A stretch of 64,000 bases of DNA, taken from Natrinema salsiterrestre (lineage in GTDB: Archaea > Halobacteriota > Halobacteria > Halobacteriales > Natrialbaceae). The stretch covers positions 682,001 through 746,000 of the forward strand of contig NZ_JAMQOT010000001.1 of assembly GCF_029502005.1 (NCBI RefSeq), read 5' to 3'. Positions 25,434 through 25,865 of this stretch are shown in pieces (position 1 is the first letter of the stretch; the number at the start of each line of letters is the position of its first letter). The translations under genes were made by a program, and so were the position numbers. Under the pieces are notes generated by a model that worked only from the letters and a program-made list of their open reading frames with translations, was not told where the DNA came from and searched no databases.

Positions 25434-25865
25434 CTACACATAGGACCGCCCTTCCTCGAGTGCGCGCCGAACGAACGGGTGGTCCGAGTTCGCGTCGAAC
25501 CGATCGGCCGGCAAGACGTGAACGGAAAAGACGACGCCGTGCTCGAGCCCGACCGTCTCGGCCAGCACCTCGAGTCGCCGTTCGGTCTCCTCGTCGTCCT
25601 CGTCTCGCGGCTCCGCCGCTCGACTGTTCGCGTAGTCTCGGGAGACGTCGTCTCCCGAAGGTCGGGAAATCTCCGATTTCCCTCGACTTCGCTCCGCGCT
25701 ATCCTCGAGGACGAGCAGTACCTCGACCGACGTGTGGACGCCGCGGTCGTCGCCCCGGACGGCATCGCCGAAGACGACGAGATCGCGGATCGACTCGCCG
25801 TGTTCGGACCGTGCCCGGCTGGCGAACGCGTCCGCGGCGTCCCCCTGTGGCGCGCCATTGCTCAT
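25434..25865 (-). CDS. Degenerate nucleotidyltransferase-like protein with in-frame hairpin insert
   Basis: This 143-aa protein has an MNT-type core: SIRDLVVFGDAVRGDDRGVHTSVEVLLVLED. The usual GS and DxD residues are replaced (GD, and SVE for the acidic pair), so catalysis is doubtful. Residues about 57-88, rich in Ser/Arg/Asp, interrupt the fold and are encoded by two tandem hairpins at 25638-25682; the sequence then resumes as ETERRLEVLAETVGLEHGVVFSVHVLPADRF. The reading frame is kept through the insert. It could be an antitoxin-like MNT remnant without a HEPN partner. Confidence 0.75.
   Translation of the reverse strand: MSNGAPQGDAADAFASRARSEHGESIRDLVVFGDAVRGDDRGVHTSVEVLLVLEDSAERSRGKSEISRPSGDDVSRDYANSRAAEPRDEDDEETERRLEVLAETVGLEHGVVFSVHVLPADRFDANSDHPFVRRALEEGRSYV
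25638..25682. repeat. Tandem triloop hairpin element B (intragenic)
   Basis: TCGGGAGAC-GTC-GTCTCCCGA (25638-25658, 9-bp stem) and GGGAAATC-TCC-GATTTCCC (25664-25682, 8-bp stem) are perfect hairpins with 3-nt loops, 5 nt apart, the same layout as the element at 4226-4272. It lies inside the nucleotidyltransferase-like gene and is read in frame as about 15 codons. Confidence 0.8.

Follow-up and report, generated by a model that had tools for sequence, protein, structure and literature searches.

In-frame hairpin-forming elements in haloarchaeal genes very likely work like Rickettsia palindromic elements

The window analysed here is a stretch of 64,000 nucleotides from the 4.79-Mb genome of Natrinema salsiterrestre. 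It contains, next to a metallo-beta-lactamase-type gene and a DUF2237 gene, a host gene whose reading frame runs through a hairpin-rich insert. The features are as follows, G010 being the genome of the nearest relative:

25434..25865, minus strand: host gene for a 143-aa protein without a family assignment; orthologues in 27 congeners have 108-115 aa
25602..25703, minus strand: in-frame insert, 102 bp or 34 codons (residues 55-88), from the orthologue and G010 alignments
25602..25624, minus strand: hairpin 2 (GTC/GAC, tandem GA mismatch, GCGGC/GCCGC)
25629..25635, minus strand: one arm of outer hairpin 1 (CGCGTAG on the plus strand)
25636..25686, minus strand: 51-bp inner module inside the loop of hairpin 1, absent from G010
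25638..25658, no strand assigned: inner hairpin, perfect 10-bp arms (25638-25647/25649-25658)
25664..25682, no strand assigned: inner hairpin, perfect 8-bp arms (25664-25671/25675-25682; GGGAAATC/GATTTCCC)
25692..25698, minus strand: other arm of outer hairpin 1 (CTCCGCG on the plus strand)

The original prediction, made from sequence alone, placed two hairpins in frame within this 143-aa open reading frame, and both the perfect arms and the reading frame held. Its estimate of about 15 codons and two hairpins was too small, as the insert comprises 34 codons and four palindromic parts: a 48-bp two-hairpin unit enlarged by a 51-bp module with two more hairpins. The short form, found in G010, consists of CGCGGAGCGAAGCTCCGCG, AACA and then GTC GA GCGGC GGA GCCGC GA GAC. 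Compared with dinucleotide shuffles, the 103-nt element folds more stably than nearly all of them, whether as RNA (z -3.2 and -3.9 for the two strands) or as DNA (z -3.6 and -3.5), while the inner hairpin pair reaches a z of -4.3.

Orthologues of the host protein provide the first empty sites. In a protein search of 60 relatives, congeners match residues 1-~57 and ~88-143 as abutting pieces, and orthologue length rises from 108-115 aa in the 27 congeners, which do not have residues 55-88, to 126 aa in G010, with 17 of the 34 codons, and 143 aa here. The DNA of G010 aligns over ~3 kb of shared flanks with a clean 51-bp difference within the element. From these alignments we conclude that the 34 codons were gained in the line of the window genome, 17 of them being common to G010. 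The predicted absence of residues of about 57-88 from element-free orthologues is thus seen in 27 congeners. Neither outcome that would have refuted the prediction occurred: palindrome-free orthologues carry no unrelated insertion of similar length (a single one, L039, exceeds the others there, by 2 acidic residues), and the orthologues do not all carry the insert as a conserved domain. A second case is TrpD, where, among 57 genomes with a match, the element is present in G004, G023 and G027. The TrpD gene of G007 is without exactly 48 bp, and 135 of 142 flanking bases are identical to those of G004. No target site duplication separates the filled from the empty TrpD site, the window site being ambiguous in this respect; when a solved TrpD is aligned, the insert lies in a gap flanked by conserved stretches. 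Insertion relative to empty sites is therefore shown in two host genes, which supports the claim that an in-frame palindromic insertion created protein sequence, although no peptide or ribosome data are available.

The identity proposed for the host protein was not supported. It had been called nucleotidyltransferase-like, with an active site degraded, it was hinted, by the insertion. The 143-aa protein has no Pfam hit, NCBIfam gives only sub-threshold ANT(4') hits (E 0.1-0.17), and Foldseek with the predicted structure finds no significant fold match. A nucleotidyltransferase fold is thus unproven, without support from any of the three, and the label stays open because the predicted fold has no significant match. 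The degenerate motif (GDAVRG...SVEVLLVL) is real, and it is common to the host and to element-free orthologues, which shows that it is ancestral and predates the insert. In an AlphaFold model supplied with 17 orthologues, pLDDT is below 50 at residues 57-86 and mostly 70-85 elsewhere; the insert is predicted to be an unstructured loop, as would be expected if it is tolerated.

A nucleotide similarity search of its own genome with the whole element returns the window copy as the only full copy, and the exact inner hairpin is likewise unique there, so the family looks absent unless its structure is modelled. We built a covariance model from 19 copies; these seeds were found by similarity to the window copy and are mostly coding, so our sampling leans to coding copies. 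Within the window the model has a sole match, at 25602-25700 (49.7 bits). With the top 150 candidates scored per genome, it finds 22-24 matches in the same genome (24 at E up to 0.1) and 7-35 in each of the other Natrinema searched. Across the class, matches at E up to 1e-4 occur in at least 327 of 391 genomes and 75 of 86 genera, counts that are lower bounds because 15 candidates were scored per genome. In 12 loci with coding and intergenic copies, Rfam returned nothing at E up to 0.1, one exact pattern searched in viral contigs had no match, and plasmids yielded only weak partial matches. Repeated or tandem units were observed at L157 (G000:C20 ~372300-372520), L256, L258 and L264, as up to three adjoining model matches or as two consecutive first hairpins (SEARSASDASSAERSSADSRAAEPRD).

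The basic unit is 48 bp long (51 bp in a variant) and consists of two hairpins whose outer parts are fixed and whose stems covary. Among 84 distinct copies, 99.1% of cells are paired and 139 are changed on both sides, compared with a shuffled mean of 34; a control in which the pairing partners were slid gave nothing comparable. This alignment was fitted to the covariance model, which favours pairing. In a model-free alignment of 19 hand-picked copies, hairpin 1 already has four pairs changed on both sides. The wide spread of the element and the covariation of its hairpins are thus shown. These data bear on a rival explanation at the protein level, in which SAERSSA.SRAAEPRD is a linker under selection as an acidic loop suited to halophiles, the palindromes being a by-product of codon bias. 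The hydrophilic peptide, its use in one frame only and its lack of structure in the model speak for it. Against it stand the paired stem changes over 84 copies, the same hairpins kept in intergenic copies, and the exact 48-bp presence or absence in TrpD of close relatives; already weakened, this reading is very unlikely.

To place the copies relative to genes, the 240-bp flanks of each received a score for every one of the six frames, from a codon table that had 27 open reading frames of the window as its training set. Of the 110 copies in a Natrinema-rich sample, 55 lie between two clearly coding flanks; every one of these has sense orientation, keeps the frame and uses a single phase. The same state holds for all 32 copies with coding flanks among 40 in a second sample, nearly all from other genera and families, whose scoring also took in three further copies. 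Pooled, 87 of 87 coding-flanked copies, in 59 host clusters, use the same one of six frames, and a single orientation and phase among such copies is shown; what looked like a frameshift at L293 and like a strand conflict at L279 comes from elements close to a gene end, each in phase with its gene. Stop codons do not explain the single frame, because most copies are open in five or six frames: among 86 copies, each of five frames is free of stops in 76-81 copies, and the sixth in 41. A preference for GACGGCGA-like targets helps and does not suffice, since acidic-codon target motifs are only ~60-70% sense phase 0 in window genes, so that this preference alone predicts ~0.6-0.7 in the observed frame as against 87/87 seen. 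Peptides from the other frames of the element are basic and acid-poor. We infer that the single frame reflects the loss of other insertions together with some preference for GACGGCGA-like acidic codons. One could also speculate that insertion is itself linked to transcription or the coding strand, so that the element enters only a single strand of transcribed genes, at acidic motifs in codon phase; the mechanism, and not later selection alone, would then give the orientation and frame. We consider this unlikely.

The hosts are varied. Pfam confirms a GatA-type amidase, PurK, LeuRS, NadC and an Lhr helicase in the window genome, and PepF and TrpD in others. Read from sequence only, further hosts are what we take to be MetRS (G010), a Trm5-like protein, an aldo-keto reductase, a metal ATPase, a formate-dehydrogenase-like protein and an M32 carboxypeptidase. 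Judging from these identities, without peptide or ribosome data, the element resides in unrelated, often essential and likely functional proteins. A functional mRNA structure maintained by the host for regulation or processing is another conceivable explanation, favoured by the stable fold, the covariation and the related intergenic copies. Yet the hosts have no common pathway, the orthologues of close relatives do without the element, and an Rfam match is absent in the loci scanned, all of which make it very unlikely. As a separate observation, the same PepF site is filled in species of two different families (L131, L139, L194), which points either to an old insertion or to a preferred site.

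Long forms like that of the window also occur at unrelated loci in G011, G015, G016 and G019. None of the five breaks the reading frame of its host (an amine-oxidase-like protein, a GNAT, a cupin, an oligopeptide ABC ATPase and the window protein). A module length of 51 bp was measured in G011, G015 and G016; our measuring pattern missed the window and G019 modules, and the length of the former comes from its coordinates, 25636-25686, and the G010 alignment. At the ABC ATPase site, G011 has a long and G027 a short form, 51 bp apart, so that the 51-bp difference is shown at two orthologous sites. This difference, along with the missing target duplication and transposase link, could be taken to favour recombination or gene conversion between hairpin copies as the means of spread, without dedicated transposition. 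Such a process requires homology, yet the 59 host clusters share none beyond the element, and we regard it as unlikely.

Of the Natrinema matches sampled, about half lie between genes or at gene edges. Many non-coding ones belong to a related subfamily with additional flanking sequence of its own (GAGCGAACG..., GGAGGAGTGCTTTTGAT...), so the mobile unit may be larger; these relatives may have given rise to the coding copies or may form a sister family. Long conserved flanks with the GGAGGAGTGCTTTTGAT tail were seen at L189, L197, L198, L216, L218 and others, and Rfam gave no match in the intergenic subfamily loci scanned. Other hairpins were noted in passing. The two inner hairpins of the long form stand alone, without outer hairpins, at L294, L295 and L296 (G019:C8, G008:C4, G008:C2), in a conserved setting on smaller contigs. 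A different pair, GGACGAAGTCC and CGGGAGACGGCGTCTCCCG, lies apparently in frame (DGRSPSARETAS) in a helicase-like gene at L297 and L298 (G004:C1 ~856550; G005:C1 ~673515) and is possibly a second coding palindrome family. A similar pair at L299 (G018:C1 ~1568960) is outside any clear gene, beside sequence that might be the end of an insertion element and hence a link to a mobiliser.

How the element moves is less clear. It has two hairpins without an overall terminal repeat, and no transposon end, transposase or intermediate was identified for it; there is no fixed target site either, only codon-like GNN flanks. Mobilisation in trans by a hairpin-recognising Y1 transposase of the IS200/IS605 type, as in REP/RAYT or PATE systems, would be a mechanism under our preferred explanation rather than an alternative to it. 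The hairpins, the TrpD site without target duplication and the reported relation of haloarchaeal PATEs to IS605-type transposons (PMC3119063) argue in its favour. Against it, PF01797 (Y1) has no match in the window genome, was not found in the element-rich G000, G004, G006 and G008, and occurs in G044-G046, genomes without an element match; the codon-like flank composition without a fixed target also speaks against it. A link to a resident Y1 transposase is not supported, Y1 presence not tracking element presence, and Y1 mobilisation remains unlikely.

Taken together, the segment is very likely one copy of a haloarchaea-wide family of selfish, hairpin-forming coding palindromes that work like Rickettsia palindromic elements (RPEs), a reading still without peptide or ribosome data. 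In this view, a copy would enter a gene in sense orientation, between codons, adding a multiple of three bases; it would be translated as a hydrophilic peptide (SAERSSANSRAAEPRD and relatives), also without such data, and be tolerated as an unstructured loop, and in the long form a further 51-bp two-hairpin module would lie within the first hairpin. That the element is selfish, and that its hairpins are needed for movement as cruciform, single-stranded DNA or RNA, is inferred. Because TrpD shows no target duplication, and a fixed target and a Y1 tie are lacking, we limit the claim to the mode of action: in-frame, hairpin-forming and selfish-like.

We found no description of archaeal in-frame coding palindromes in the open-licence literature searched, subscription papers being outside the search. 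Several known systems come close. Haloquadratum PATEs and small mobile repeats are haloarchaeal, short and palindrome-bearing, without target duplication (PMC3119063); unlike our element, PATEs are not described as in-frame gene insertions in the relevant sections of that paper, and no IS605 end was identified here. Intragenic REPs of the GTAG and CGTC families, as in Opitutus terrae and R. conorii, are small hairpins also within coding regions (PMC3733652, whose main text names no haloarchaeon), but they measure 20-40 bp, whereas the haloarchaeal unit is two hairpins with fixed outer parts. In Nematomorpha, inverted repeats are embedded in protein-coding genes (PMC6649704), although these are described as mitochondrial, perfect and up to 284 bp long. 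Unlike a MITE, the haloarchaeal element adds exactly 48 bp to TrpD, with no target duplication.

The closest likeness is to RPEs, dispersed palindromic elements found in frame in many unrelated open reading frames and translated with the host protein (PMC10969869, PMC3733652). With respect to mode of action, the likeness that the original prediction drew holds, since dozens of unrelated genes carry this one element in frame; membership by sequence is not shown. Like RPEs, the haloarchaeal element is dispersed within one genome, keeps the frame of genes that are unrelated and likely functional (87 copies in 59 host clusters) and has empty sites (the window gene and TrpD). Unlike RPEs (~150 bp), with which no sequence link is shown, it is archaeal, 48 bp long and made of two hairpins, and it keeps one orientation and phase in every coding-flanked copy. 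By this account, many haloarchaeal enzymes contain recent loops derived from the element, which can mislead alignments, domain calls and structure models. Rickettsia genetics is hard, and genetically tractable haloarchaea exist. With closely related filled and empty sites, the way in which such elements move, and whether their peptides are used or just tolerated, would become open to test. Palindromic elements of this in-frame kind are known chiefly from Rickettsia, and the haloarchaeal element would be a class-wide archaeal counterpart.
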